Of a stretch of 64,000 nucleotides of DNA, positions 1 through 19,665 are shown piece after piece. Position 1 is the first letter of the stretch. Every line of letters begins with the position of its first letter. The notes under the pieces were generated by a model that saw only the letters and a program-made list of their open reading frames with translations, was not told the DNA's origin and did no database searches. The stretch covers positions 496,001 to 560,000 of the forward strand of contig FUZM01000001.1 of NCBI GenBank assembly GCA_900167925.1, given 5' to 3'. The position numbers and the translations under genes were made by a program. The stretch is from Bacteroidales bacterium WCE2008 (GTDB lineage: Bacteria > Bacteroidota > Bacteroidia > Bacteroidales > UBA932).

Positions 1-1080
1 GAGACCATCGGTTACAAGCACTACATGGCAAGGTACGTCCAGACCAACAGCGGCGTCATCAAGGAACTCCCTTACACCGGTTCCGACCTCGGCGGCACAG
101 GCGAAAAGATCAAGAAGATCTACAATGATTATCTGATTACCGACGGTTCTACCAAGAACTATGTCCATGTGACCGACTACATCGACTTCAACAAGGGTAT
201 CACCATCGACTTCTACAAGAACGGAAACGTTGTTGCAACCTACACCACAAGCTCAGTCGTTTCTGTCAAGCGCGGCAGGGTGACCAACCTCGGCGACATC
301 ACCTCAGCCCTTTCTAACGGCGGCAACCCTGGCGGCGGCAGCGATCCTGGCGAGGTCAAAAAACCTTATATAAACTATGTTGCATGGTCAAAGTCACTCA
401 AGAAGAGTGATAGAGATTATGTGGTCGAGCTTTCAGGTCTCTGCCTCAGCGAGGGCAAGGACTTCCTCTGGGGAGTAGGCGACAACGGCCATGTATACAA
501 GATCAACCTCGACGGTTCATACTCATTATACACGGATTTAGATACCGACCTTGAAGGCGTCACCATGCATCCTGATACCAAGGATCTCTATGTTTGCATC
601 GAGCCTAAGCGCATAGCCAAGATTGCGGCTTCAAGCTACAACAGCAGGACAAACGTCGCTACTGTTACCGATGCCGAGAATTATGATAACTCAGGTCTTG
701 AGGGTATTACCTGGTACAAGGGTAACCTTCTCGTCGGAAGCCAGACCGGAGCCTATGTATGGGCATACTCTACAAGTGGATCCAAGGTCATGAACCGCAA
801 GAGTCTCAGGGATATCGAATCCAGCATCTCCGAGGTGGCCGACCTGTACTATGATTCAGAGACCGACCTTCTCTGGGTTCTGGACTCAGAAAAATATATG
901 ATCTTCATCTTCAATGGTGCCATCACAGAGTTGGTTACTACCGTCGACATCAGCGGCTTCGCTGACTGGAACCCTGAGAGCATCTTTGTGGACCATAAGC
1001 ACGACTGCGTATGGATTGCCGATGACTGCAGCGATGACCATCCTTCAATCCTCCACAAAGTCATCTTCCACAATCTTTAG
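1..1080 (+). CDS. SdiA-regulated-like beta-propeller protein, 5' end outside window
   Basis: The frame is open from base 1, so the gene starts outside the window; the first ATG at 25 is probably internal. The N-terminal part (to about residue 105) is beta-rich and ends in a Gly/Pro linker (GGNPGGGSDPGE). The remaining ~240 residues look like the SdiA-regulated/YjiK-type propeller: repeated strand motifs such as LEGVTMHPDTKDLYV, LEGITWYKGNLLVG and DLLWVLDSE. Such proteins are usually exported and bind or hydrolyse small ligands, but no catalytic site can be assigned here. No signal peptide is visible because the start is missing. A strong terminator follows 50 bp downstream. The family call is by motif memory and the function is unknown. 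Confidence 0.6.
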   Translation, partial: ETIGYKHYMARYVQTNSGVIKELPYTGSDLGGTGEKIKKIYNDYLITDGSTKNYVHVTDYIDFNKGITIDFYKNGNVVATYTTSSVVSVKRGRVTNLGDITSALSNGGNPGGGSDPGEVKKPYINYVAWSKSLKKSDRDYVVELSGLCLSEGKDFLWGVGDNGHVYKINLDGSYSLYTDLDTDLEGVTMHPDTKDLYVCIEPKRIAKIAASSYNSRTNVATVTDAENYDNSGLEGITWYKGNLLVGSQTGAYVWAYSTSGSKVMNRKSLRDIESSISEVADLYYDSETDLLWVLDSEKYMIFIFNGAITELVTTVDISGFADWNPESIFVDHKHDCVWIADDCSDDHPSILHKVIFHNL

Positions 1081-1130
1081 TCCGATCACTGCTCATTGAT
1101 TTTCTGAGAATCAGTGAAAGATTATATCCA

Positions 1131-1160
1131 GCGATACCGCCCTGCGGTATCGCTTTTTTT
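1131..1160 (+). terminator. Rho-independent terminator
   Basis: A perfect 10-bp stem (GCGATACCGC / GCGGTATCGC) with a 3-nt loop is followed by seven T. It ends the transcript of the propeller gene. Confidence 0.92.
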
Positions 1161-1233
1161 GCTCCCCCATTGAAGCCAAAATTTGAGGAAATTGTAAAAA
1201 CGCTATCAATTTGCTTAAATATTGACTTTGGGT

Positions 1234-1320
1234 GTGCATATGGGTCCATTCCGTGGACCCATATGCACGAAAAAGGGGGTTAAACGTGTTTATGGGTCCA
1301 AACTTTGGACCCATACGCAC
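1234..1320. repeat. Two related long palindromes
   Basis: The first palindrome (1234-1268) has 15-bp perfect arms around a 5-nt loop. The second (1286-1320) has an 11-12 bp core plus partial outer pairing. Both share the core ATGGGTCCA ... TGGACCCAT. Neither has a T-run, so they are not ordinary terminators. They lie between the propeller gene and the 33-bp repeats in front of the DUF4143 ATPase. Function unknown. Confidence 0.75.
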
Positions 1321-1357
1321 ACCTGGGCGCATATTGTCGACCAGGTCTTTTGCTCTC

Positions 1358-1453
1358 AAATTTTGAGGAAATTGTAGTTTTTGGCAAAATAAATTTTGAG
1401 GAAACTGTAGTTTTTGGCGAAAAAAATTTTGAGGAAATTGTAAAAACGCTATC
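1358..1453 (+). repeat. 33-bp tandem repeats in front of a DUF4143 ATPase
   Basis: TTTTGAGGAA recurs at 1361, 1394 and 1427, exactly 33 bp apart. The first two units share the downstream part GTAGTTTTTGGC; the third continues as GTAAAAACGCTATC. A fourth, isolated copy of the third type lies at 1177-1207, before the palindromes. The last unit carries the probable -33 box of the ATPase promoter, so the repeats multiply promoter-proximal DNA. Confidence 0.85.
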
Positions 1454-1457
1454 TTTG
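1428..1457 (+). promoter_or_regulatory. Promoter of the first DUF4143 ATPase
   Basis: TTTG at 1428-1431 and TATCTTTG at 1450-1457 are separated by 18 bp, close to the Bacteroidetes consensus. The start codon at 1478 lies about 14 bp after the expected transcription start. The -33 box lies inside the last 33-bp repeat. Confidence 0.65.
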
Positions 1458-1477
1458 TGTCGTGTAATCAATGAGTT

Positions 1478-2821
1478 ATGGACGATAGACATCTCTTTAA
1501 AAGAAAGATATACGATCGCTTGCTAAGATGGAAGCAAGAAAGTAACGGTAAGAGCGCGCTTCTTATCGAGGGCGCCCGCCGTATTGGTAAGTCTACCATC
1601 GTTAAGACTTTTGCCCAAAATGAGTATGAGTCGTACATTCTTATAGATTTTACAAAATGCTCACAGGAAGTAAAAGACCTCTTCAATGATATTTCAGACC
1701 TTAGCTATATCTTCCTCAGGCTTCAGCTTATATATGACGTCCGGCTAGTCGAACGCAAATCTCTGATAATTTTTGATGAAGTGCAGTTCCAACCTCTGGC
1801 CCGTCAGGCGATAAAGTCTTTAGTGGAGGATCGCCGTTATGATTATATTGAGACGGGGTCCCTCATTTCCATCCGGAAGAACACTGAAAAGATACTTATT
1901 CCAAGCGAAGAAGAACGAATAAGTATGTATCCTATGGATTATGAAGAATTCCGTTGGGCTCTCGGTGATACGGCCACTGTTCCATTGCTCAACAGTGTAT
2001 GGATGAATCCTCAGCCGTTAAATGAGGCCCATCGTAAACTCATGAGAGACTTTAGGTTATATATGCTTGTCGGCGGTATGCCACAGGCGGTCGAGGCATA
2101 TCTGGAGTCTAATAATTTCGAAGTTGTCGACAGAGCAAAAAGGCTCATTCTGGATCTGTATGATGAGGATTTCAACAAGATTGATCCTTCAGGGAAGGCG
2201 GCCAGAATATTCTCCGCTATTCCGGCCCAGCTTAACAGTAATGCATCAAGATATCGGATCTCTCAGGTCATCCCGAATTCTCGTGCCAAGGACTTCATCG
2301 AAGTTATTTCTGAGATGGAAAAGACCAGGACTGTGAACATTTGTCACCATTGTGACGATCCAAATGTCGGCCTTGGCTGCTCAGAGGATTTGATACAATA
2401 CAAGATGTATGTCGGAGATACTGGATTGTTCGTCACGCTTGCGTTCAGAGACAAGGCTTTTACTGAGAATGTCATTTATGAACGTCTCTTAAGCGATAAG
2501 TTGGCCGCAAATCTGGGATATCTCTATGAAAATGTAGTAGCTCAGATGCTTACGGCCTCCGGTAATAAACTATATTACCATACCTGGCCTACAGAGAATG
2601 GAAAGCATAATTATGAAGTGGATTTCCTTCTGTCACGCGGGACTAAGATACTGCCGATTGAAGTAAAATCTTCTTCTTATAAAACCCATGTTTCGTTGGA
2701 TGCTTTTTGCAGCAAATACTCTTCCCGTATTACCAATGATCGTTACCTCGTCTATACAAAAGATTTCTTCAAGGATGGAGCCGTGAAGTACATTCCCGCG
2801 TATATGGCTTATTTCCTATAG
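1478..2821 (+). CDS. AAA_14/DUF4143 family ATP-binding protein
   Basis: The 447-residue product has the two-part layout of this family. An N-terminal P-loop ATPase carries Walker A GARRIGKST at residues 32-40, Walker B LIIFDE at 96-101 and a sensor-like ETGS near 125-128. A C-terminal DUF4143 region has a nuclease-like pattern, EVDFLL ... LPIEVKSS around residues 385-405, recalling the D...ExK core of PD-(D/E)XK folds. The ATG at 1478 follows a good promoter. Bacteroidetes and archaea often carry many paralogs with no settled function. A second paralog lies at 10187; both have period-32/33 repeats just upstream. The family call is firm; any role in defence, DNA handling or signalling is speculation. 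Confidence 0.88.
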   Translation: MDDRHLFKRKIYDRLLRWKQESNGKSALLIEGARRIGKSTIVKTFAQNEYESYILIDFTKCSQEVKDLFNDISDLSYIFLRLQLIYDVRLVERKSLIIFDEVQFQPLARQAIKSLVEDRRYDYIETGSLISIRKNTEKILIPSEEERISMYPMDYEEFRWALGDTATVPLLNSVWMNPQPLNEAHRKLMRDFRLYMLVGGMPQAVEAYLESNNFEVVDRAKRLILDLYDEDFNKIDPSGKAARIFSAIPAQLNSNASRYRISQVIPNSRAKDFIEVISEMEKTRTVNICHHCDDPNVGLGCSEDLIQYKMYVGDTGLFVTLAFRDKAFTENVIYERLLSDKLAANLGYLYENVVAQMLTASGNKLYYHTWPTENGKHNYEVDFLLSRGTKILPIEVKSSSYKTHVSLDAFCSKYSSRITNDRYLVYTKDFFKDGAVKYIPAYMAYFL

Positions 2822-2826
2822 TCGCC

Positions 2827-3195
2827 CTACCGGATTTCTTTACCGAACGGGAAGATGCTGGCGAGAGCCATGCTGAAATGCTTGAGCCCCAGCGGAATGC
2901 CGATGATGCTGACGCAGAATATGAGCCCGCAGAACAGGTGGATGATCGCAACCTCCCACCAGCCGCACAATATCCACAGGAGATCCATCACCACCGAGAG
3001 GCAGCCCGGCTCGTTCGGGCCGTTCACCAGCTCATGCCCGAAAGGATGCAGGGCATATGCGCCAAGCTTGAACAACTGCAGCCCGAACGGAATGCCGATG
3101 ATGGTAATGCACATCAACAGCCCCACGACGAAATAGATTATGGCGACCACAAGTCCGCCCAGCACCAGCCAGATAAGATTTCCTATTATGCTCAT
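2827..3195 (-). CDS. YccF domain membrane protein
   Basis: A 122-aa, very hydrophobic protein made of two similar halves, each with a membrane segment and a conserved block: ITIIGIPFGLQLFKL in the first, VSIIGIPLGLKHFS in the second. This is the two-repeat arrangement of YccF (DUF307) inner-membrane proteins, whose function is unknown. It is convergent with the DUF4143 ATPase (5-bp gap). The 5' half is duplicated as a truncated copy at 4686-4856. Confidence 0.85.
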   Translation of the reverse strand: MSIIGNLIWLVLGGLVVAIIYFVVGLLMCITIIGIPFGLQLFKLGAYALHPFGHELVNGPNEPGCLSVVMDLLWILCGWWEVAIIHLFCGLIFCVSIIGIPLGLKHFSMALASIFPFGKEIR

Positions 3196-3239
3196 ATCTA
3201 ATTTTTTCTGAAAGATAATTGATTTTTTTGATTTTTATC

Positions 3240-3247
3240 TACCTTTG
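3240..3247 (+). promoter_or_regulatory. -7 box of the candidate ncRNA
   Basis: TACCTTTG matches TANNTTTG exactly. The region upstream is very T-rich; the -33 box cannot be placed with confidence. Transcription would begin near 3254. Confidence 0.55.
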
Positions 3248-3251
3248 CAGC

Positions 3252-3389
3252 GAGACAGTAACACCGTGGTACGGATGGGTAATCGAGTCGTGCAAAGTCC
3301 CCGCCCGCGAGGCCCTCGCTTTCGAAGTAATTCCGCCACGTAGTCTTGGGGCAAAGCTTACAGGAGGTCATTTTGGCCTCCTGTTTTTT
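3252..3389 (+). ncRNA. Candidate structured small RNA
   Basis: A -7 box and a strong terminator delimit a transcript of about 135 nt with no convincing ORF. The predicted fold is a long interrupted hairpin: AGAC with GTCT outermost, then CGTGG with CCACG, then CGGA with TCCG. Inside are a GCGAG-GCC-CTCGC hairpin and a small CTTTCGAAG hairpin. A CCCC/GGGG pairing between the apical part and the segment before the terminator could form a pseudoknot. I cannot match it to tmRNA, SRP or RNase P RNA. A Bacteroidetes 6S RNA or the Bacteroidales-1 motif are possibilities that I cannot test. No plus-strand gene follows closely, so a riboswitch is unlikely. Confidence 0.55.
3360..3389 (+). terminator. 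Terminator of the candidate ncRNA
   Basis: The stem ACAGGAGG / CCTCCTGT has a 9-nt loop and is followed by a T-run. It overlaps the 3' end of the minus-strand gene at 3368. Confidence 0.85.
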
Positions 3390-3739
3390 GTAGCATCGAT
3401 TGCCGTTATGCAATACTGAACCTTTGATTTATCGCTTTTCTTTACTCCGACCAGCATCTTGACCTGTCCTATCCCCGGGCAGTTATATGTCATTCGCAAC
3501 ATTCTCATGAATCCATGCTGGTTCTTTTTATTCTGGTTAATGGGTGTGGTCTCTACGAGCACAGCATTCGTCAGGATTGCATCCAGCTGAAGAACGGCGA
3601 GTGTGGATAAATATGTCAAAGATGCTTGCCCGGCCGTCTCCTCTAAAGAGACATACCTGATGTTAATATTGTCTTTAAGGTTAAGATTATACTTCTTTGC
3701 GTCCGGATTCCGTTCTTTCCATTTGTGATAATACGACAA
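3368..3739 (-). CDS. Hypothetical protein, possibly truncated, with LPD/PBECR-like features
   Basis: The 123-aa frame begins at TTG, not ATG. An in-frame TGA lies 16 codons further upstream, beyond which the frame is open again, so the gene may have lost its N-terminus. The sequence is protein-like: a charged N-terminus (YYHKWKERNPDAKKY), then VSLEETAGQASLTYLSTLAVL, then ILTNAVLVETTP and a C-terminal VKMLVGVKKSDK ... YCITAID. The 'NAV.VE ... VGVK ... YCITA' pattern reminds me of nuclease-like domains at the ends of phage polyvalent proteins (LPD/PBECR type), but this is recall, not a search. It lies between the two yccF copies. The start site is unsupported. Confidence 0.45.
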   Translation of the reverse strand: MSYYHKWKERNPDAKKYNLNLKDNINIRYVSLEETAGQASLTYLSTLAVLQLDAILTNAVLVETTPINQNKKNQHGFMRMLRMTYNCPGIGQVKMLVGVKKSDKSKVQYCITAIDATKNRRPK

Positions 3740-3855
3740 AATGATTTTCTGTCTTTCCCTGCGATCCTCGTTAGAGTCTCCTCGTCATTCAGAAGACATC
3801 CGGTATGATTTCGAATATGCGAATAAGGAAGGGTATGAATTTTCACCTTTGAACC

Positions 3856-4671
3856 TTATAACGAATTTATTGCTTGACTCTCGCTGGATTTAACCATCTC
3901 GTCGTAATCGGAAGACAACTTCAGCAGCTGTTCTTCATAGGCGGGATAGCGCTTCTTGCTATAGATCATCATGGAATGCTTGTAGTTTCCATAAGGCGAG
4001 CGATTAGGCTCCATATGGAAGGACTCATTCTTCTCGTATTCCAATGCCACTGTTTCATTCTCCCAACTATGCTTCTCTTCTATAACTTGTATGACTGTAA
4101 GGTTTGAATTGCTGTTAGATTTAGTCAGATCAAAGGAATACAGTTTCCCGCGTCCGTTGCCATATTTCTCTTTGTAATGGGCGATCACCTTATCTTCGAT
4201 CTTGTCATCAGGATAGAAAAAGATGGCCACTAAAGTATCGTTAAGGAAGGCCATATCAAAGGGCTCAAACTTCAGCATTCCAAGTGTAATCCCTGTTAGG
4301 GGGCTGGATGGCAATTGCTTCAGTCTTGACCCAGTTTTAGACTTCATCCACTTCACCTTGGGGTCTCCAGGAAGAACATGGTTTTCACCTTTTTTATTCC
4401 AGAAATCTATGCCCCAATGTCCGTTATACATATTGCTTTGCCTATCATAGATAGTTGTTGCAACTTTCTTAAAGTCTTTGTCATTAAGAACTTGCTTGAA
4501 GGTGGTTTTGCCTATGATGAATTGTCCGACCCCTTTGAGCTCAGCACATGCGGCGTAGAGTTCCTCATCAGTGGGATCGTATTTTTCATCGGTAACAGTG
4601 TGAGTGCCCGAAGGATTCGAACCGCAGGATACGATAATAATACATATTAGAGATAGGAAGATGCTTCTCAT
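3856..4671 (-). CDS. Hypothetical lipoprotein
   Basis: A 271-aa protein with a clear SPII signal: hydrophobic segment, then VSC with the lipidated Cys at 16. The mature part has no domain I recognise. It contains GVGQFIIGKTTFKQVL, a phrase seen in small exported proteins with a 'G.I.GkTt.keV' motif, then a mixed alpha/beta region and a basic-acidic C-terminus. It probably sits in the periplasm or on the inner face of the outer membrane. It belongs to the segment bracketed by the complete and truncated yccF copies. Confidence 0.75.
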   Translation of the reverse strand: MRSIFLSLICIIIVSCGSNPSGTHTVTDEKYDPTDEELYAACAELKGVGQFIIGKTTFKQVLNDKDFKKVATTIYDRQSNMYNGHWGIDFWNKKGENHVLPGDPKVKWMKSKTGSRLKQLPSSPLTGITLGMLKFEPFDMAFLNDTLVAIFFYPDDKIEDKVIAHYKEKYGNGRGKLYSFDLTKSNSNSNLTVIQVIEEKHSWENETVALEYEKNESFHMEPNRSPYGNYKHSMMIYSKKRYPAYEEQLLKLSSDYDEMVKSSESQAINSL

Positions 4672-4685
4672 TGTAATTATTGCAT

Positions 4686-4856
4686 TTACTGGTTTATCTC
4701 GTTAAGATGGATGGTATATGCGTCAAGCTTGAACAGCTGCAGCTCGAACGGAATGCCGATGATTGTGATGCACATCAACAGTCCCACGACAAAATAAATT
4801 ATGGCGACCACAAGTCCGCCCAGCACCAGCCAGATAAGATTTCCTATTATGCTCAT
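4686..4856 (-). pseudogene. Truncated second copy of the yccF gene
   Basis: The minus-strand frame reads 56 residues. The first ~47 match the YccF protein at 2827-3195 almost exactly (MSIIGNLIWLVLGGLVV ... ITIIGIPFELQLFKL), including DNA-level identity from the start codon for about 150 bp. It then diverges to DAYTIHLNEINQ and stops, so the second YccF repeat is missing. Upstream flanks of the copies differ. It looks like a partial recent duplication, 1661 bp from the parent; the short membrane peptide might still be made. Confidence 0.8.
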
Positions 4857-5019
4857 TTATTTAGAAGCTTTTTCGCCTGCAAAGCACATAAAGGGGATAA
4901 ACCACTTAGAAAGTATGCAAATATAGAAATTATTTTGTTTTCTTTTATATGGAGCAAATGAACGACATTCTTAGATAAACAGTCTTAATTACGGATGTTA
5001 ATATCCAACCCTTTGATGT

Positions 5020-5068
5020 TATGCTAACTATAGTATGTTGATAACTTTAGTTAGCATATCTACCTTTG
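5020..5068 (+). promoter_or_regulatory. Promoter and operator palindrome of the XRE regulator
   Basis: An 11-bp inverted repeat (TATGCTAACTA at 5020-5030, TAGTTAGCATA at 5048-5058) with 17-bp spacer overlaps a promoter with -33 GTTG (5037-5040), 20-bp spacing and -7 TACCTTTG (5061-5068). The position suits autoregulation by the XRE protein encoded 27 bp downstream, like controller proteins of restriction systems. Confidence 0.65.
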
Positions 5069-5094
5069 TAATGAGTAGATCTAGTAATTACATA

Positions 5095-5304
5095 ATGGAA
5101 AAAGAACCAGTTCTCAAGGCTTTCGGACAGAGAGTACGGGAGCTTAGAAAAAAACGTAATATGTCACAAGAACAGCTTGCTGACTTGGCAGGTGTACATC
5201 GAACATATATCGGTATGATAGAACGTGCAGAAAAGAATATTACACTTTGTAATATCGAGAGGATAGCTAAGGCACTCGAGGTCAATATCAAGGATTTATT
5301 CTAA
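5095..5304 (+). CDS. XRE-family regulator, likely restriction-modification controller protein
   Basis: A 69-aa single-domain helix-turn-helix protein. The core is VRELRKKRNMSQEQLADLAG ... RTYIGMIERAEKNIT ... IAKALEVNIKDLF, with the family's helix 2-turn-helix 3 at about residues 24-44. The ATG at 5095 is preferred over upstream ones (5035, 5071) because those lie in or before the promoter whose -7 box is 5061-5068. Size and position next to a GATC restriction-modification set fit a C protein that times endonuclease expression. It heads an operon with two unknown genes (12-bp gap to the next). Whether it also controls the minus-strand genes is inference. Confidence 0.85.
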   Translation: MEKEPVLKAFGQRVRELRKKRNMSQEQLADLAGVHRTYIGMIERAEKNITLCNIERIAKALEVNIKDLF

Positions 5305-5316
5305 AAGCAAAGCAAT

Positions 5317-5853
5317 ATGGAAACCCAAAAAACAGTCACTATCAAAGCAAATACTCGTGAGGATTATCACAAGCAGTTGATTATGCTTTTTCTTGAGGAA
5401 CAGCACGGTACTTCAGAAGAATGGAATTACTACGATTATTATGTAGAAACCGGCAAAAACGGCAAGAGGGTGTATCTGCACCGCCCTGCGCATAAAAATA
5501 AGGGAATGGATTTCGAAGTCCGTGTCGAAGATTATCAGTTCAGATACGGGAAATATGGTAATGTTATCAGTACTGGTAACCGTCCTAGCCATCCTGAAAT
5601 ATGGAATGATGTTAAAGCAAAAGTTATTGAAAATCCAGAGGACGGGGAAAAACTGAAAGACTTAATCACTCAGGTCTATAATTGTGAGGAACCGAATGAT
5701 AATGTTATTAATTCTTGTCGTTTCACAACCGGACTGCCACTTGATTTGCTGCTTTACACGATTAAATGGCTCTTTATAGAACAAGATATGACATACTGGA
5801 ACCAGAGTGGAAGGGAAATGAACTACAATGGTTTAATGGAAATTTGGGAATAA
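5317..5853 (+). CDS. Hypothetical protein of the GATC restriction-modification island
   Basis: A 178-aa soluble protein with no signal peptide or membrane segment. Visible blocks are NTREDYHKQLIMLFLEEQHGT, EEWNYYDYYVETGKNGKRVYLHRPAHKNKGMDFEVRV, and near the C-terminus GLPLDLLLYTIKWLFIEQDMTYWNQSGREM. The aromatic-rich first half and hydrophobic helix near residues 145-165 look conserved rather than random. I believe similar proteins occur next to Dam/DpnII-type systems, but cannot prove it here. It sits between the XRE regulator and another unknown gene in one operon that converges on the methylase-endonuclease operon. Function not assigned. Confidence 0.75.
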   Translation: METQKTVTIKANTREDYHKQLIMLFLEEQHGTSEEWNYYDYYVETGKNGKRVYLHRPAHKNKGMDFEVRVEDYQFRYGKYGNVISTGNRPSHPEIWNDVKAKVIENPEDGEKLKDLITQVYNCEEPNDNVINSCRFTTGLPLDLLLYTIKWLFIEQDMTYWNQSGREMNYNGLMEIWE

Positions 5854-5864
5854 TCAGACTCCAT

Positions 5865-6428
5865 ATGTACAATCCGAAGTACTTCAAAAATGGTGATATG
5901 TGGCAGTACCGAGGCCCAAAGGGCCCTGCCATTCATACTTTTACTGCAGCTGACGGCACGGCTATCGGAATGTTTCAAGGAAAGAAAGGGGCTCGTCCAG
6001 ATTTAGACTTCCGAGTGAAAATTCTTCAGCCAAAACCTGATGCAAGGCCATTTCTTCTTCCCCATAACGAATGGGTAGTAGACTTACTACTAAAAGCACA
6101 GCACCACAAGGAAGCGGTTGTTTGTTTACTGGATTATTATCTTGAGTTCTATGAATCATGCAAGCCTTTCGCTACACAGGAAGAACGTAAACTGTATCAG
6201 CCTCGCACCCTGAAAGAGATCGAGACAAAGTTTGCAAATGTCAGTACCCCAGGGACAATGTCCATTGGTGGAATTGCCATTATACTGGAGCTTTTCTGCT
6301 TATGTGAGAAACAGACTCCTGATGCGCATCAGTTTAAACTGGCGCTTCAGTGGACAAAAGAGTGTATTTTGGGTCAACGGGACTTCAAAAATGTCCTTAA
6401 CTTGGTGATACGACACAGGGAGTATTAG
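5865..6428 (+). CDS. Hypothetical protein of the GATC restriction-modification island
   Basis: A 187-aa soluble protein starting at the ATG 11 bp after the preceding stop; an upstream start in the same frame would overlap the previous gene by 88 bp and is less likely. The N-terminal half holds a Gly/Pro-rich stretch (MWQYRGPKGPAIHTF, IGMFQGKKGARPDLDFRVKIL). The C-terminal half is helical (VVCLLDYYLEFYESC, LFCLCEKQTPDAHQFKLALQWTKECI). No family is recognised. Its stop overlaps the stop of the convergent methylase by 4 bp, so the two operons meet tail to tail. Confidence 0.72.
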   Translation: MYNPKYFKNGDMWQYRGPKGPAIHTFTAADGTAIGMFQGKKGARPDLDFRVKILQPKPDARPFLLPHNEWVVDLLLKAQHHKEAVVCLLDYYLEFYESCKPFATQEERKLYQPRTLKEIETKFANVSTPGTMSIGGIAIILELFCLCEKQTPDAHQFKLALQWTKECILGQRDFKNVLNLVIRHREY

Positions 6429-7306
6429 AACGGCAATTCTAGCCCATAGTAGACTTCAGGCTCACAGAGAACACGTATGTCGCTATCTTGGAAGAGTTTG
6501 GCTTGCTTCTCCAGCTTCTCTAGCATCTCTCCTCTACGATTGATATTGTCCAGTTCTTCGCGACGGGCTTTGCTCATCTCGAGGAACTTTTCTTCTTGGT
6601 CAATACCTAAGAAACGGCGTCCAAGTAGATTTGCCGCTATGCCTGTGGTGCTACTTCCTGTGAACGGGTCTAGTATCCATGCTCCGGGTTTCGTGGAAGC
6701 CTGAATAATTCTCGACAAAACGCAAAGCGGTTTCTGGGTGGGATGCTTGCCACAAGACTTCTCCCAAGGCGCAATCGCCGGCAGTGTCCACACATCACGC
6801 ATCTGGGTGCCGCCGTTGATTTCCTTCATCAACTCATAGTTGTAGTAGTGGGCCACTTTCTGTTCCTTACGTGCCCACAAAATATACTCAGCAGAGTAAG
6901 TGAAATATCGACAGGAAAGATTGGGCGGAGGATTTGTCTTTACCCATGTGATACAGTTGAGAATCTTGAAATTCAGTTCTGTAAGGCACCTAGCCACAGA
7001 GAATATGTTGTGGTAGGTCCCGCTAACCCAGATTGTGCCATCAGATTTCAAATGCTCCCTGCAGGCGGTCAGCCAGGTTTTATCAAATTTGTAGTCTTCT
7101 TCAAATCCCTGAGACTTATCCCACTTGCCTTTATTCACAGAAACAGGGACTCCACTCTGAATGCTAATTCCCCCGTTGGACAGATGGTATGGCGGATCTG
7201 CGAAAATCATATCGAACTTGAAATCGAAGGAGTTCAGAAGTTCGATACAATCTCCCTGCAGGAGTGTGAAGTTTTTATCCTGTGATTTGTAGTAGGCCGT
7301 GGGCAT
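6425..7306 (-). CDS. dpnA: Second adenine-N6 DNA methyltransferase (DpnA-like)
   Basis: A 293-aa beta-class N6-adenine methylase. Catalytic DPPYHL lies at residues 37-42, followed by a variable target-recognition region. The AdoMet-binding block HPTQKP ... ILDPFTGSSTTGIAA is near residues 188-225. In DpnII systems DpnA methylates GATC, including single-stranded DNA, and protects incoming DNA. Gene order here is dam-type methylase, endonuclease, then this gene, 3 bp after the endonuclease stop. The specificity is inferred from the neighbours rather than from this protein's target domain. Confidence 0.87.
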   Translation of the reverse strand: MPTAYYKSQDKNFTLLQGDCIELLNSFDFKFDMIFADPPYHLSNGGISIQSGVPVSVNKGKWDKSQGFEEDYKFDKTWLTACREHLKSDGTIWVSGTYHNIFSVARCLTELNFKILNCITWVKTNPPPNLSCRYFTYSAEYILWARKEQKVAHYYNYELMKEINGGTQMRDVWTLPAIAPWEKSCGKHPTQKPLCVLSRIIQASTKPGAWILDPFTGSSTTGIAANLLGRRFLGIDQEEKFLEMSKARREELDNINRRGEMLEKLEKQAKLFQDSDIRVLCEPEVYYGLELPF

Positions 7307-7309
7307 ATC

Positions 7310-8134
7310 TTAAGCCATTCTCTTAAGTTCTTCGACGAAAGACGGGAGAGTTGTGAGGTTGTAAACGCGAGGGATAATACCATAGGCTTCCTCCAGTTTA
7401 TTCTTAGCACTAAGCCAACCCTGCCCATCGGTTATCCATACAAATTCGTATTTCTTATTAGAGTTGATTTTTGGAGCAATATCTGAATATGAGCGCGCGA
7501 CTTCATTGGGTTTAGAACCGCCGTCATTGTAGAAGTTAGTCTCGATTAAGAAGATTTTGTCCTTTTTCCTTATGACAAAATCGAATCGTTTAAGGTCTTT
7601 CCCGAGTCCTTTTAAGTCATTAAATGTCGCACTATTGACCTCTTCTTCATAAACTACGTTGGCTTCAGCAAATACTTTTGCAACAGCTTCTGCCATTAGT
7701 TTTCCGGAGCGATTCTTTCGTGCATTTGTATCAAGACCGACCTCGACACCAAAAACATAATCAACAAGATTGGTAATTCTCTTTGAGCGAAACACTTCCC
7801 CTAACCCTGTACCCTCAATATATTTGCAGATACTATCAACATCATTGAAACAACTCTCTAAAAGTACTGGCTGAAGCTTTTCGTTCAAGACTAATTTCTT
7901 GTCCTTCTTTCTCACTGCCACAAGAATGTCTAAGACTTCGAAGGCCTTAGGATTCTCGTTATAGACCAACTCAACAGCTGCGCGTAAGTTATCCTTGCCG
8001 AGAAGGTAATTAAGTTGATTGAGCTTAACTGCAATCTTGGCAACGCTTGAAGAGACTTTGGAAAAATCAGTGAAGAAGCCCAGTGTTGCATTTGTCTCCT
8101 TTAACTGGGAGAGGAAAACATCAAATTCAGCCAT
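7310..8134 (-). CDS. DpnII-family type II restriction endonuclease (GATC)
   Basis: A 274-aa protein resembling DpnII/MboI. The N-terminus has the family phrase LKETNATLGFFTDFSKV (residues 11-27). A helical middle follows. The C-terminal core has RFDFVIRKKDKIFLIETNFY (183-202), in which D185 and the ETN at 198-200 take the place of the usual D...ExK residues, as I recall for this family. It lies 4 bp behind the dam-type methylase and 3 bp before the second methylase, so all three are probably co-transcribed. It should cleave unmethylated GATC. Confidence 0.88.
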   Translation of the reverse strand: MAEFDVFLSQLKETNATLGFFTDFSKVSSSVAKIAVKLNQLNYLLGKDNLRAAVELVYNENPKAFEVLDILVAVRKKDKKLVLNEKLQPVLLESCFNDVDSICKYIEGTGLGEVFRSKRITNLVDYVFGVEVGLDTNARKNRSGKLMAEAVAKVFAEANVVYEEEVNSATFNDLKGLGKDLKRFDFVIRKKDKIFLIETNFYNDGGSKPNEVARSYSDIAPKINSNKKYEFVWITDGQGWLSAKNKLEEAYGIIPRVYNLTTLPSFVEELKRMA

Positions 8135-8138
8135 AATG

Positions 8139-9050
8139 CTAAGCGTTAACTACGTTGGAAATCATTAATTCAGAGATAGCCCCGCGACCGGAAGCATCCG
8201 AGTTTATCATTCTCGCGGCAGAGACTCTCTTGATGAAGAAATGATTGTATAAAGTATCGAAGAAATTTTCGGAAGGATTGACATCCTTCGGGTCGGAATT
8301 GCTGGCCACAAACAGGGCCTTCTCCTTACTAATTTGGTCACAGAAGTCACGAAGACGAATCTGCTCGTCATCATCGAATCCTTCTTTCGCGTAGGACGTG
8401 AAGGAGGAAGTCTCCGTGATAGGCTTGTAAGGAGGGTCGAAATAGAACAGCGTGTTGGGGGCGGCGTAGCGTCCTGTCTCGGCAAAATCACCACAAAGGA
8501 TTTCCACCTTCTGCAGGACCTTAGAGCAGGCACGGAGGTTCTCAGCATCGCAAATGCGAGGATTCGCATACTTGCCATGAGGAACGTTGAATTCGCCCTT
8601 TGAGTTCACGCGGTAAAGGCCGTTGAAGCAAGTGCGATTGAGGAAGATGAACAGGGCGGCCGTTTCAACCGGAGTCGTCTTCTTCGTATTAAAACGAGCT
8701 CTCTTCTCTAAGAAATAAGCCTTGCGGCCTTCTGCCCCTAAGGGAATATATTCATCTTGAATATGAGCAAGTACCGCTGTCAATTCTTCGACATTCTCCT
8801 TGATAACTCGATAGGTACAGATGAGTTCCTGATTAATATCGTTGATTACAGCCCTCTCAATATTGGGATACTCCTGAAGAATCCAGAACATAACGGCACC
8901 ACCACCGACAAACGGCTCTACATACGTTACGTGCTGACGGGATGCGAAATCGCGAGGAAGCAATTTACGAACTTCATCCAGCAGTTGTGTCTTCCCTCCA
9001 ACCCATTTGATGAATGGCCGAGCTTGTGTTTTGTATTCAAACAGTCTCAT
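8139..9050 (-). CDS. dam: Dam-family GATC adenine-N6 methyltransferase (DpnM-like)
   Basis: A 303-aa alpha-class m6A methylase. It has the N-terminal PFIKWVGGKTQLL (residues 12-24), the AdoMet motif EPFVGGGA (45-52), FNGLYRVN (142-149) typical of the Dam target region, and catalytic FDPPY (204-208). It is the first gene of the three-gene operon and would protect host GATC sites. Its promoter at 9069-9098 itself contains a GATC site. Confidence 0.93.
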   Translation of the reverse strand: MRLFEYKTQARPFIKWVGGKTQLLDEVRKLLPRDFASRQHVTYVEPFVGGGAVMFWILQEYPNIERAVINDINQELICTYRVIKENVEELTAVLAHIQDEYIPLGAEGRKAYFLEKRARFNTKKTTPVETAALFIFLNRTCFNGLYRVNSKGEFNVPHGKYANPRICDAENLRACSKVLQKVEILCGDFAETGRYAAPNTLFYFDPPYKPITETSSFTSYAKEGFDDDEQIRLRDFCDQISKEKALFVASNSDPKDVNPSENFFDTLYNHFFIKRVSAARMINSDASGRGAISELMISNVVNA

Positions 9051-9068
9051 AAGTAATACATATTTCTA

Positions 9069-9098
9069 CAAAGTTACAAAAAGTTCGGATCGGTCAAA
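9069..9098 (-). promoter_or_regulatory. Promoter of the dam-DpnII-dpnA operon
   Basis: On the minus strand, TTTG (plus 9095-9098) and TAACTTTG (plus 9069-9076) are 18 bp apart. The spacer contains GATC at 9088-9091. The start codon lies about 18 bp downstream of the -7 box. Confidence 0.7.
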
Positions 9099-9216
9099 GT
9101 GAGAAGTTAAAAAAATGACAGAGCATAATAAGTGACATCCCATCAGTCGAATTTTTGCGGCAATAAAAGAAGCCAGGGTGGTGTCTATAAGACTTGAAGT
9201 GTACCGATTACTTTCA

Positions 9217-9600
9217 TTATTTCAGCACCTCCCAGAAACTTTCTGGCAACCAGATGTTGGCGAGGGGGAGGGCGGAGTGGAACATGGGGGCGATGTCGGA
9301 GGGGGTGTAGCCGGCGATGCCGCAGCCGATCGGGGTGACGAGGAATGTCAGTTCGGGGTGGTTGCGGGCGTAGTCGATGAAGCGGCGGACGGCGGCGCGG
9401 GTGCTTTCCAGGCCTTCCATGGTCGGGATGGCATAGGACTGGCCCTGAAGGCCTTCGCCAGCTCCCCAGACGGCCCCGAAACGCTCCATCGCGACACGGG
9501 CCGCTCCGCCCATATGGCGTCCCGCCTGATTGCTTCCAAATACGAAAATCTGGCCGGCATCAAGCTGAAAAATCAATGGCGGAGTGGTCCTGGATTCCAT
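9217..9600 (-). CDS. Macro-domain-like protein (A1S_2505 type)
   Basis: A 127-aa soluble protein. The block IFVFGSNQAGRHMGGAA (residues 18-34) and the later FLVTPIGCGIAGYTPSDIAPMF match the small macro-fold family often annotated A1S_2505-like and common in phages and bacteria. The FGSN..GRH.GGAA loop is where macro domains bind ADP-ribose-like ligands. No catalytic function is shown. It starts 7 bp after the TonB-like gene stop and is probably co-transcribed with it. Confidence 0.75.
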   Translation of the reverse strand: MESRTTPPLIFQLDAGQIFVFGSNQAGRHMGGAARVAMERFGAVWGAGEGLQGQSYAIPTMEGLESTRAAVRRFIDYARNHPELTFLVTPIGCGIAGYTPSDIAPMFHSALPLANIWLPESFWEVLK

Positions 9601-9607
9601 TGCCGAA

Positions 9608-10018
9608 TTAGATTATAAATTCAACAGAGAACGTGTAGATGACTTTTTGGGGACGTCCATTGACGGTGCCGCATTCCCATTTTGGAGAGGAAGACACTAC
9701 CCTTACTGCTTCTGCATCTATTGATTCGTAGACACCAGAGACGATATTGATGTCTTTGACCGTGCCGTCGACATCTACTGCGAAATTCAATATGACAGTT
9801 CCTTGGATTCCTTTTTTCAGTGCATCTTTTGGATAAGCAATGTGTCTGTTGACCCATTTTCTGAACTTGTCGGGATCTCCGCCTTTGAATTTCGGGGCTA
9901 CTCTTACTACATCAAGCTGTTCCAGAGAATCTATTTGTGGTTCGACAACTGGCGGCTCCTGGCAGAGAGCTGTCAGGGAAAACAGCACAAACAGTGCTGA
10001 AACAAGGATTTTTTTCAT
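9608..10018 (-). CDS. TonB C-terminal domain protein, exported
   Basis: A 136-aa protein with an N-terminal signal peptide (MKKILVSALFVLFSLTALCQ). A TonB-type C-terminal domain follows, with WVNRHIAYPKDALKKGIQGTVILNFAVDVDGTV and VVSSSPKWECGTVNGRP. It lacks the long Pro-rich spacer of a true energy transducer, so it may be an accessory periplasmic protein. The ATG at 10018 is chosen because the longer frame would translate the 32-bp repeats and has no signal peptide at its start. Confidence 0.78.
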   Translation of the reverse strand: MKKILVSALFVLFSLTALCQEPPVVEPQIDSLEQLDVVRVAPKFKGGDPDKFRKWVNRHIAYPKDALKKGIQGTVILNFAVDVDGTVKDINIVSGVYESIDAEAVRVVSSSPKWECGTVNGRPQKVIYTFSVEFII

Positions 10019-10070
10019 GATAAACGTGGTTTTTATTGCCGCGATAATAGCAATAATTACGCCATCGAAT

Positions 10071-10186
10071 GTTGGAAAAGTGGAAATTTTGGCCAAAAAT
10101 GCGTTGGAAAAATGGAAAAAATGAGTCAAAATGTGTTGGAAAAGTGGAAATTTTAGTCTAAATTGCGTTGGAAAAATGGAAATTGT
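10071..10186 (+). repeat. 32-bp tandem repeats directly before a DUF4143 ATPase
   Basis: Four units start with GTTGGAAAA at 10071, 10103, 10135 and 10167, exactly 32 bp apart. The typical unit is GTTGGAAAARTGGAAA, then a TTTTGGCC/AAAA-like segment, then TGC. The fourth unit is cut to 20 bp and runs straight into the ATG at 10187. The TTTTGGC...AAAA segment and GGAAA block echo the 33-bp repeats before the ATPase at 1478, although the units are otherwise different. No -7 box is obvious between the last unit and the start codon. Confidence 0.9.
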
Positions 10187-11533
10187 ATGCTTAAAAGGAA
10201 GATAGACAAGTACTTAAGAGACTACTACGAAAAGTCCAACAATGCGTTGCTGATTGCCGGCGCCCGCCAGGTCGGCAAGACGCATTCTATCCGGGAATTC
10301 GGCAAGACTTTCAAGAGTTTTATCGAGATCAACTTCGTCGAAAATCCTGATGCGGTAGGCTTGTTCAAGGACGCGGTGGGGAGCGATGATATATTGAGAC
10401 GTCTGTCTACCATCACTTCTGCTCCGATGATCAAGGGCGAGACCTTGATTTTCTTCGATGAAGTACAGGAGTGTCCGGACATCGTCACGGCAATCAAGTT
10501 CCTTGTAGAAGAAGGATCCTATCGTTACATTCTCAGCGGTTCGATGCTCGGCGTCGAACTCAGGGATATCCGTTCCGTCCCGGTCGGGTATATGGGCGTA
10601 AAAGAAATGTATCCGTTGGATTTCGAGGAATTTATATCCTGCGTGGGGATAAATGACGAAGTGATAGGGCTGTTGAGGACATCCTGGGCGGAAAAGAAGC
10701 CTGTCGATGATTTCATACATAAAAAGATGATGGAGCTTTTCCGTCTCTATCTTATTGTCGGAGGCATGCCTGCCGCCGTGAGTGAGTACATTGACAGCAA
10801 TAACCTGCAAAATGTGCTTGGCGTACAGAAAGAAATCGTCCAGATGTACAAAAAGGACATATCCAAATATGATCCTGAAAACAAGTTGTATATAGAAGAA
10901 ATCTTCAATCTGATACCGCCGGAACTCAATGCTAAAAACAAGCGCTTTATACTGAAGCGTCTTAACGAGAATGCAAAGTTTGAACGGTACGAGAACAGTT
11001 TCCTCTGGCTGAAAGATGCCGGCGTAGCCTTGCCGGTTTACAACATAGAGGAGCCCAAAGTTCCCTTGCTGCTTGCGCGCTCCAGGAACCTTCTCAAGCT
11101 TTTCCTGAATGACATAGGCCTTCTCGCCTCCCAGTATGCGGATGGGATTCAGATGCGCATCATCAAAGGCGACAAGGATATCAATTTCGGATCCATCTAT
11201 GAGAATGCCGTCGCCCAAGAGCTTGTCGCCCATGGTCTGGAACCATATTACTACAACAACAAGAAAAGGGGAGAGCTTGACTTTGTCGTCGAGATCGGCG
11301 GTAAAATCTTGCCTGTCGAGGTCAAATCCGGGAAAGACTACACTTACCACCGTGCTCTCTCCAATGTCATGGATTGCAAGGAATACAGTATCCCCGAAGC
11401 AATCGTCCTGAACAACGACAACATAGTCGTGGAGGGGCGGATTGTCTATGCTCCTGTCTATATGGTGATGTTCCTTGAGAAAGAGAATAATGTGCCCGTC
11501 AGTTATAAAGTAGATTTGACCGGGCTGAGGTAG
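10187..11533 (+). CDS. AAA_14/DUF4143 family ATP-binding protein (second paralog)
   Basis: A 448-aa paralog of the protein at 1478. It has Walker A GARQVGKTH near residues 24-32, Walker B TLIFFDEVQ near 85-93, the sensor-like LSGS near 115-118, FRLYLIVGGMPAAV in the middle, and the C-terminal GELDFVVEIGGKILPVEVKSG with D...ExK spacing. I take the ATG at 10187 (MLKRKIDKYL), which aligns with the start of the first paralog. The longer TTG-initiated frame would translate the last repeat. Function unknown. Confidence 0.88.
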   Translation: MLKRKIDKYLRDYYEKSNNALLIAGARQVGKTHSIREFGKTFKSFIEINFVENPDAVGLFKDAVGSDDILRRLSTITSAPMIKGETLIFFDEVQECPDIVTAIKFLVEEGSYRYILSGSMLGVELRDIRSVPVGYMGVKEMYPLDFEEFISCVGINDEVIGLLRTSWAEKKPVDDFIHKKMMELFRLYLIVGGMPAAVSEYIDSNNLQNVLGVQKEIVQMYKKDISKYDPENKLYIEEIFNLIPPELNAKNKRFILKRLNENAKFERYENSFLWLKDAGVALPVYNIEEPKVPLLLARSRNLLKLFLNDIGLLASQYADGIQMRIIKGDKDINFGSIYENAVAQELVAHGLEPYYYNNKKRGELDFVVEIGGKILPVEVKSGKDYTYHRALSNVMDCKEYSIPEAIVLNNDNIVVEGRIVYAPVYMVMFLEKENNVPVSYKVDLTGLR

Positions 11534-11556
11534 GTGCAGTGTATCAATAATTTTCT

Positions 11557-11564
11557 TATTTTTG
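11557..11564 (+). promoter_or_regulatory. -7 box of the diaminopimelate operon
   Basis: TATTTTTG lies 14 bp before the first start codon of the operon; the -33 box is poorly conserved. It is the only match between the ATPase stop and the operon. Confidence 0.5.
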
Positions 11565-11578
11565 TAGATTGGTAGAAA

Positions 11579-12568
11579 ATGGACACGAAATTATTCATAG
11601 AGATGCTTTCGATCGACTCGACCTCAGGGCAGGAGAGGGCGATGGGAGAGTTTCTTGTTTCATGTCTGAAGACCCCTGCCAACACAGTCGAATCATTCGA
11701 AGTGGGAGACGGCACAATCAACATCCTTGCAAAATGGGGCGAGCCGAAAGTGTACTTCTGCTCCCACATGGACACAGTCCCGCCTTACATCCCGCCACAG
11801 CTCCACTCCGACCGCATCACCGGCCGCGGCAGCTGCGACGCCAAAGGCCAGGTGTTCGCCATGTTCGAAGCATGCCGCAGGCTTGAGGCCGAAGGCCGCA
11901 CAGGGTTCGCCCTGCTCGTGCTCTCCGGCGAAGAGACCGGATCCTTCGGAGCGAAAGCCTACACCAGGGACTGCCAGGGCGGCGAAATCGTCATCGTCGG
12001 CGAGCCGACCGACAACCGCATGGTCACGGCCAGCAAAGGCACCAAATCCTTCGACGTCAGGATCCTCGGCAAGAGCTGCCACTCCGGCTATCCCGAGAGG
12101 GGCGTAAGCGCGGTCGAGAGATTCATCGACTTCATGGAAAAGGTCCGCACGACCGGCTTCCCTGAGGACAAGGTTCTCGGCCCGACCACCTACAACGTCG
12201 GTCTTCTCTCCAGCCCGAACCAGCAGAACATCCTCAGCCCGGAGCTGACGTTCAGAATCTACTTCCGGACGACATTCGCCAGCGACGCTGCGGTCTGCGG
12301 GTTCATGGAGTCCATGAAAAACGAATTCACGGAGATCACCGCCCGGGGCGGCGACACTCCGATGGAGTATCTTACCGTCGCCGGAATACCGCAGACGACA
12401 GTGGCTTTCGGCAGCGATGCTCCCCAGCTCCACAAGTTCTCCCGCAGGGCGCTTTGCGGCCCGGGATCGATACTCGTGGCCCATACCCCGGACGAATTTG
12501 TCTTGCTCGAAGACCTCGAAAAGGCCGCCGGGCAGTATGTAAAAATGTATAAAGAGTTGACGAAATAA
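11579..12568 (+). CDS. dapE: M20 metallopeptidase, probable succinyl-diaminopimelate desuccinylase
   Basis: A 329-aa zinc hydrolase of the M20/ArgE-DapE family. Metal and catalytic residues are visible: HMDTVPP (H63, D65), GRGSCDAKG (D87), SGEETGSFG (E118/E119), VGEPTD, and HTPDEF near the C-terminus. A dimerisation insert with KSCHSGYPERG is present. It is the first gene of an operon containing dapD and an aminotransferase, so it is the obvious desuccinylase giving LL-diaminopimelate. The length is slightly short for DapE (about 375). Acetylornithine deacetylase is the main alternative from sequence alone. Its stop overlaps the lysC start by 1 nt. Confidence 0.8.
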   Translation: MDTKLFIEMLSIDSTSGQERAMGEFLVSCLKTPANTVESFEVGDGTINILAKWGEPKVYFCSHMDTVPPYIPPQLHSDRITGRGSCDAKGQVFAMFEACRRLEAEGRTGFALLVLSGEETGSFGAKAYTRDCQGGEIVIVGEPTDNRMVTASKGTKSFDVRILGKSCHSGYPERGVSAVERFIDFMEKVRTTGFPEDKVLGPTTYNVGLLSSPNQQNILSPELTFRIYFRTTFASDAAVCGFMESMKNEFTEITARGGDTPMEYLTVAGIPQTTVAFGSDAPQLHKFSRRALCGPGSILVAHTPDEFVLLEDLEKAAGQYVKMYKELTK

Positions 12569-18860: not shown

Positions 18861-19665
18861 GGCCGAAAAACAGTGTTGAGGGTGCAGCGGTATGCCTTGC
18901 ACTGCACTCTGTGGCACATCCTTGCCCCCTCACTGGCCGAAAAACAGTGTTGAGGGTGCAGGCGTATGCCTTGCACTGCACTCTGTGGTATGTCCTTGCC
19001 CCCTCACCGGCTGAAATAACTGTTTGAGGGTGCAGCGGTATGCCTTGCACTGCACTCTGTGGCATGTCCTTGCCCCCTCACCGGCTGAAATAACTGGTTG
19101 AGGGTGCAGGCGTATGCCTTGCACTGCACTCTGTGGCGCATCCTTGCCCCCTCACCGGCTGAAATAACTGGTTGAGGGTGCAGGCGTATGCCTTGCACTG
19201 CACTCTGTGGCATGTCCTTGCCCCCTCACCGGCCGAAATAACTGGTTGAGGGGGATTAGCCGAAGTATAAGGTTGAGGGTGCAGCGGTATGCCTTGTACT
19301 GCACTCTGTGGCATGTCCTTGCCCCCTCACCGGCCGAAATAACTGGTTGAGGGTGCAGCGGTATGCCTTGCACTGCACTCTGTGGCACATCCTTGCACCC
19401 TCATCGGCCGAAAAACGGTGTTGAGGGTGCAGCGGTATGCCTTGTACGGTTCTCTGTTGCGTATCCTTGCACCCTCATCGGCCGAAAAACGGTGTTGAGG
19501 GTGCAGGAGTATGCCTTGCACTGCTCTCTGTGGCATATCCTTGCCCCCTCACCGGCTGAAAAACAGTGTTGAGGGTGCAGCGGTATGCCTTGCACTGCAC
19601 TCTGTGGCATGTCCTTGCCCCCTCACTGGCCGAAATAACTGGTTGAGGGTGCAGGAGTGTGCCTC
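18861..19665. repeat. 74-bp tandem repeat array of imperfect hairpins
   Basis: The marker GAGGGTGCAG (or GAGGG at 19248) starts at 18878, 18952, 19026, 19100, 19174, 19248, 19275, 19349, 19423, 19497, 19571 and 19645. All intervals are 74 bp except one of 27 bp, caused by a short insertion near 19250-19274. In each unit GAGGGTGCAG-N-GGTATGCC can pair with GGCATGTCC-TTGC[AC]CCCTC, giving a hairpin of about 53 nt, with a ~21-bp linker holding GGCCGAAA or GGCTGAAA. The linkers are nearly identical, so this is not CRISPR. Since 74 is not a multiple of three, the frames rotate and the many minus-strand ORFs here are artefacts. Confidence 0.92.

Follow-up and report, generated by a model that had tools for sequence, protein, structure and literature searches.

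The repeat array, the promoter and the ATPase gene

The stretch of DNA analysed (64,000 nucleotides, referred to as the window) contains on the + strand a DUF4143 ATPase gene (1478-2821) encoding a protein of 447 amino acids with AAA_14 and DUF4143 domains, the best PADLOC match of which is PDC-S01. It is preceded by a three-copy 33-bp direct repeat array (1358-1442, + strand) with TTTTGAGGAA cores at 1361-1370, 1394-1403 and 1427-1436, i.e. at a spacing of exactly 33 bp. Tandem Repeats Finder recovered the interval 1358-1442 with a period of 33, 2.6 copies, 92% matches and a score of 149. For statistical evaluation, the 180 bp before each start codon were searched at periods of 18-50 for three equally spaced copies, the score being the highest number of columns, out of 14, in which all three copies agree. 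This score was compared with those of 200 Markov shuffles of that sequence, which gives a floor of p = 0.005. The array of the 1478 gene reached 14 of 14 identical columns, a value that none of the 200 shuffles equalled (p = 0.005). Thus, the 33-bp period at 1361, 1394 and 1427 put forward in the original prediction was confirmed by the exact cores at all three sites, by Tandem Repeats Finder and by the shuffle test. The −33 box had been predicted to lie in the last unit, and TTTG was indeed located at 1428-1431 (+ strand) within the third core. It is followed after 18 bp by the −7 box TATCTTTG (1450-1457, + strand), which gives a Bacteroidota-type promoter ahead of the 1478-2821 gene.

The array has a single occurrence in the 2.37-Mb genome. 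A dispersed regulon site was rejected, as a search allowing three mismatches gave, elsewhere in the genome, only the solo copy of the unit at 1178 plus four weaker matches at scattered positions. A CRISPR array was likewise rejected, judged on the repeats, which comprise just ~10-14 bp cores in three copies, with the promoter −33 box inside the unit. The solo copy (TTTGAGGAAATTGTAAAAACGCTATC, 1178-1203, + strand) is identical over 26 bp to the last unit plus spacer and lies ~180 bp upstream of the array; it may be left over from an array or insertion that existed earlier. Between the solo unit and the array, the segment 1220-1330 contains two long palindromes built on ATGGGTCCA..TGGACCCAT, and an 85% copy of most of this segment is present at G000:C3:367237-367321.

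The second DUF4143 ATPase gene of the window (10187-11533, + strand, 448 amino acids, assigned to PDC-S01 by profile match) has its own array at 10071-10184 (+ strand), with 3.6 copies of the 32-bp unit GTTGGAAAARTGGAAA; as anticipated, this array at 10071 differs from the first one in its unit, both in period and in core. Among the 48 window genes tested, these two ATPase genes were the only ones with significant arrays. The third ATPase gene of the genome (L001) is associated with a weaker 23-bp array (p = 0.02), so that all three DUF4143 genes of the genome appear to own an array.

Further repeats were observed in the window. About ten copies of a 74-bp unit form a long tandem repeat at 18861-19654, and a partial second copy (4706-4856) of a YccF-like gene (2827-3195) shares 93% DNA identity with it over 151 bp. 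A segment of ~120 bp (3237-3360) turns up again in many genomes of the genus (~75-95% identity), away from the neighbouring YccF-like gene, and may represent an unlisted structured RNA or repeat; an Rfam search over 1-12000 gave no match, this segment included.

An AlphaFold model of the 447-amino-acid protein (pLDDT 92, pTM 0.91, 76 sequences) comprised, in this order, an AAA+ domain (amino acids 1-201, 1478-2080, + strand; Walker A GARRIGKST, Walker B LIIFDE), a helical stretch, a winged-helix region (amino acids ~236-312, 2183-2413, + strand) and a C-terminal PD-(D/E)XK nuclease-like domain (amino acids ~313-447, 2414-2818, + strand). The winged-helix region, assigned on the basis of secondary structure and kinship, is the putative DNA reader. 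Solved structures were not detectable by sequence search. In structure comparisons, residues 2-323 matched 2qen with a Z score of 16.6 (rmsd 3.9, 264 residues), and further matches of the AAA+/winged-helix part were SSO1545 (2fna, Z 14.5), then CED-4, plant NLRs and Orc1/Cdc6. The C-terminal domain alone matched McrC, Can2/Card1, restriction enzymes and Holliday-junction resolvases with moderate Z scores of 5-8. At the catalytic positions, E351, D382 and K397 are invariant and E395 is nearly invariant. Based on these structure matches and conserved residues, the C-terminal domain most likely adopts a PD-(D/E)XK nuclease fold whose catalytic set is complete, and the ATPase may accordingly be an active nuclease. 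The PDC-S01 profile of PADLOC covered the window proteins over their full length (E values of 1.6e-97 for amino acids 7-446 and 1.2e-200 for amino acids 1-445), and the predicted fusion of AAA+ to PD-(D/E)XK is also the trait described for PDC-S01.

Extent of the cassette

Array, promoter and open reading frame form a cassette of ~1.47 kb (1354-2821, + strand) that is shared as one among related copies at different loci, with homology beginning at the first repeat unit and ending at the stop codon. Copies with 88-94% DNA identity in several unrelated contexts had only this part in common. Among 124 close pairs with enough flanking sequence, 103 shared just the array-to-stop stretch, and none of the 75 close pairs with a known array start extended more than ~35 bp past that start. 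In 173 pairs at different loci (79 loci), which overlap in members and hence are not independent, identity was ~0.8 on the cassette side of the array start and 0.3 on the other side, and it likewise fell from 0.78 to 0.29 in the first bases past the stop codon. This boundary analysis supports the predicted gene-plus-repeat unit, with array and gene together as the unit that moves, and the cassette appears to spread horizontally as a whole. Its edges may be set either by a dedicated mechanism or by selection for a minimal working unit.

A related cassette on Bacteroidales plasmids (L357, L369) lies between a hipB-like gene and the sequence behind hipA, where it stands in place of the hipN-hipA of L368 and L366. 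On the left, the junction precedes the first unit by a few bases; on the right, it is no more than ~6 bp away from the stop codon. At this one plasmid site, the array-ATPase cassette and the hipN-hipA toxin module thus replace each other.

The sharp edges at the first unit and the stop codon (173 pairs, 79 loci; none of 75 close pairs reaching more than ~35 bp beyond) would also suit an array whose main role is that of the left end in a minimal mobile element, recognised by the ATPase-nuclease in order to excise, copy or insert its own gene in a homing- or transposon-like manner, with the promoter overlap being secondary. The replacement of hipN-hipA between hipB and the sequence behind hipA points in the same direction, and the combination of a nuclease with AAA+ recalls TnsA/TnsC. 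However, neither a clean empty site nor a target-site duplication was found among the loci examined. The search for the empty site of the window cassette used the YccF-like downstream gene in 250 genomes of the genus, and the queried stretch was matched at the DNA level in 126 of them; in the 29 loci retrieved from relatives, no counterpart of the left-hand gene or of the left flank of the window was found. The records listed for Vibrio and Acinetobacter plasmids contained no clear version of an unoccupied site, and no target-site duplication was obvious at the cassette edges inspected, the Bacteroidales plasmid site included. Moreover, the right end lacks an obvious partner sequence, the repeats are direct and present at one end only, and Pfam assigns only AAA_14 and DUF4143 to the ATPase, with no transposase or integrase domain. 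As mobility also has no need of a promoter lock, we consider this explanation rather unlikely and favour the operator function of the array proposed below.

Distribution of the arrays and their relation to the protein

Triple arrays at p ≤ 0.01 were found upstream of 186 of 333 DUF4143 ATPase genes versus 6 of 324 other genes taken from these or related loci, with start codons picked automatically and many of the genes being related to one another. The raw control figure was 7/325, from which L371 2942-4271 was taken out as an annotated AAA family ATPase missed by the filter. None of the six array-positive control genes had a period of 32-34 bp. About 44% of the ATPase genes are without a significant triple array, some of them holding two or diverged copies. 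Across 61 genomes of the genus, an array at p ≤ 0.01 was assigned to 49 of 108 ATPase genes. Named loci with an array at this threshold comprised 34 of 49 from Bacteroidota, 16 of 23 from Bacillota and one Treponema MAG, and array-bearing cassettes were present on complete plasmids of Agathobacter, Glaesserella, Collinsella and Criblamydia; the plasmid records are the firmer ones, as MAG taxon labels may be wrong. Close homologs of the ATPase were also encoded on short viral-labelled contigs. In a phylum-wide sample (E ≤ 1e-140), no close homologs were found beyond the window's own genome.

In the clade around the 1478 gene (identity of 48% or more), 152 genes could be assessed and 110 of them had arrays at p ≤ 0.01, with a period of exactly 33 bp in 106 and of 32 bp in four; this clade kept the 33-bp period in both Bacteroidota and Bacillota. 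Periods in other ATPase clades were 32, 34, 23, 22 or 39 bp. The core sequences differ among the genes of the clade (ATTTTGAGG, ATTTCGGGG, ATTTGGTGG, ATTTTGCGC and others).

Two observations at individual loci were made in this survey. On a Segatella copri plasmid (L360), a stretch of 4.4 kb holds three genes for AAA family ATPases; two of these genes have triple arrays, which differ from each other (32 and 33 bp). At L005, the gene for an ATPase of another DUF4143 clade has a direct repeat of ~35 bp (TGTAATTTCGGAGTTCAATTCC..TTGCATAAA) before its start and again at its stop codon, as though a duplicated site flanked the gene.

The check named in the original prediction was to compare unit type with ATPase clade across genomes, and a correlation was found. 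Mapped on the protein tree, the repeat type (period label) changed 21 times versus 48 times with shuffled labels (0/200 shuffles as low), and motif distance correlated with protein distance with r = 0.80 over 58 independent (non-overlapping) pairs. In agreement, unit similarity increased with protein identity from 7.35 of 12 for proteins <30% identical, versus 6.78 for shuffled units, to 11.3 of 12 for those >85% identical. Paralogs inside one genome gave a unit similarity of 7.45 of 12 and were as unlike as strangers. With unit similarity near chance at such divergence, the GGAAA and TTTTGGC..AAAA pieces that had been noted as common to the two window arrays carry little weight. Physical linkage alone would lead to co-inheritance of array and gene, so that the tracking is consistent with, rather than proof of, a protein that reads its array.

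Mutual information between core bases and protein sites was highest at residues 261-278, 301-302 (helix-turn-helix) and 372-377. The covariation of the top sites, in a region chosen after a first look, gave p values of ~0.02 under one weighting and 0.11-0.24 under the other, and covariation of residues with the core was not significant in the independent-pair test. A covariation of protein residues with the core is therefore suggestive at most. These tests point to no definite reader of the array, which would be in line with control of expression by a regulator or nucleoid protein of the host that has no relation to the ATPase. However, the core differs among paralogs of one genome and is conserved between genomes with the same protein clade, and arrays occur in records from Bacteroidota, Bacillota, Pseudomonadota, Actinomycetota and Chlamydiota, for which a common host factor is unlikely. 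A host protein is thus quite improbable as the reader of the array.

In the 33-bp arrays of the clade, core columns 17-19 were the same in all three copies in 90-97%, and spacer columns 2-5 in 8-19%. Cores that are alike next to diverged spacers indicate that the cores are maintained by selection at fixed spacing and do not stem from recent duplication, which would have kept the spacers alike as well. Short tandem repeats do arise by slippage and the copy number is low, but the extremely improbable reading of the array as a slippage by-product or a functionless tandem duplication near the promoter is already contradicted by random spacers, identical cores and a fixed period, by the frequencies in ATPase and other genes (186/333 vs 6/324) and by the conservation of the period across clades.

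Of 117 clade genes, 53 have a TAnnTTTG box that begins 19-20 bp beyond the core G of copy three, and in 13 others the box lies one 33-bp step further on, the best triple having missed the last copy there; the last core thus also serves as the −33 box. In Clostridia, the last copy is close to the start codon, and the promoter geometry of Bacteroidota is not applicable. This position near the ribosome-binding site would fit repeats that act in RNA as a leader structure, an explanation with hardly any chance, as the Bacteroidota array lies upstream of the inferred transcription start and would therefore not be transcribed from that promoter.

Proposed operator function and relation to known systems

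We consider it fairly probable that the array is a cis-acting operator of the ATPase gene within a compact, horizontally spreading cassette, and that the ATPase represses its own promoter. The natural binder would be the ATPase itself, for three reasons. No other protein accompanies the array throughout (families of neighbouring genes recur in at most 4 of 80 loci), the array varies with the paralog and not with the host, and the fold of the ATPase groups with DNA-reading AAA+/winged-helix proteins. The protein would bind the three cores side by side on one helix face, with 33 bp corresponding to about three helical turns, and to two turns in the 22/23-bp clades. Self-assembly of AAA+ would aid binding and lead to a cooperative occupation of the cores. 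As the last core is the −33 box, its occupation would shut out RNA polymerase and keep the gene silent. Silence may end when the protein is titrated or switched, e.g. upon phage infection if PDC-S01 is a defence gene; a defence nuclease would, through autorepression at a phased array, stay at a low level until infection. An extended scheme, in which one AAA+ nuclease uses the three-unit array both as a repressor dock and as a mark for cassette excision or copying, is unlikely; if true, PDC-S01 would be a minimal self-moving immune element that unites defence, control and mobility in one protein and 100 bp of DNA.

According to the available parts of the respective reports, PDC-S01 is an ATPase fused to PD-(D/E)XK and a single-gene phage defence candidate that ranks as the fourth most common defence system across all prokaryotes, with validation pending for most such candidates (PMC12988326), and a rumen survey found it more often than any other single locus (PMC13356809). 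In these parts, both reports deal with the protein only and say nothing of the array, of its overlap with the promoter or of the exact edges of the cassette; the terms "tandem repeat", "direct repeat" and "promoter" are all absent from PMC12988326. The window proteins match PDC-S01 (AAA_14 PF13173 plus DUF4143 PF13635, COG1373-like) end to end, and they share with it the organisation as a single, widespread and horizontally moved gene. The phage defence candidates were reportedly defined in a 2024 preprint by Payne et al. A literature search for DUF4143 together with tandem repeats gave no hits, and no description of arrays at DUF4143/PDC-S01 genes was found in the literature searched, with a mention by Payne et al. 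being possible. The 22/23-bp repeats of P. gingivalis, considered as an earlier description, were absent from the paper checked. The presumed novelty of the gene-plus-repeat unit therefore held in part: the gene family is already listed as PDC-S01, and the array, the promoter overlap and the cassette edges are new as far as the literature was searched and the cited reports were available.

Related features are found in a number of known systems. The archaeal AAA+ ATPases SSO1545 and PABY2304 (2fna and 2qen, Z 14.5 and 16.6), the best structural matches, also combine AAA+ with a winged helix, but their alignment covers residues 1-323 only and the window protein adds the predicted PD-(D/E)XK domain; we know of no array for these proteins. 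The Orc1/Cdc6 initiators, which are among the structure matches, are likewise AAA+/winged-helix proteins and read short origin repeats. In contrast to these, the ATPase genes have strictly spaced direct repeats at their own promoter, with one array per gene, and encode a fused putative nuclease. Autoregulated toxin-antitoxin and restriction-modification modules such as hipBA are compact and mobile and have operator repeats over their own promoter. Unlike these, the PDC-S01 cassette consists of a single gene without a separate antitoxin or regulator, and its three cores are helically phased. The mycobacterial AAA+ regulator IniR contains an SSO1545-like ATPase and is reported to bind and regulate a promoter (PMC5760070). 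It differs from PDC-S01 in having three described domains without a nuclease and a separate C-terminal DNA-binding domain, and in activating another operon, iniBAC.

The arrays are a first concrete clue to the DNA bound by PDC-S01 and to its control. They provide each of many divergent homologs with a candidate cognate DNA with defined edges, so that binding, repression, triggering and nuclease specificity become testable together. The cassette edges define the minimal DNA to be cloned, from the first unit to the stop codon, and a recognition code might be learned from these natural protein/DNA pairs.
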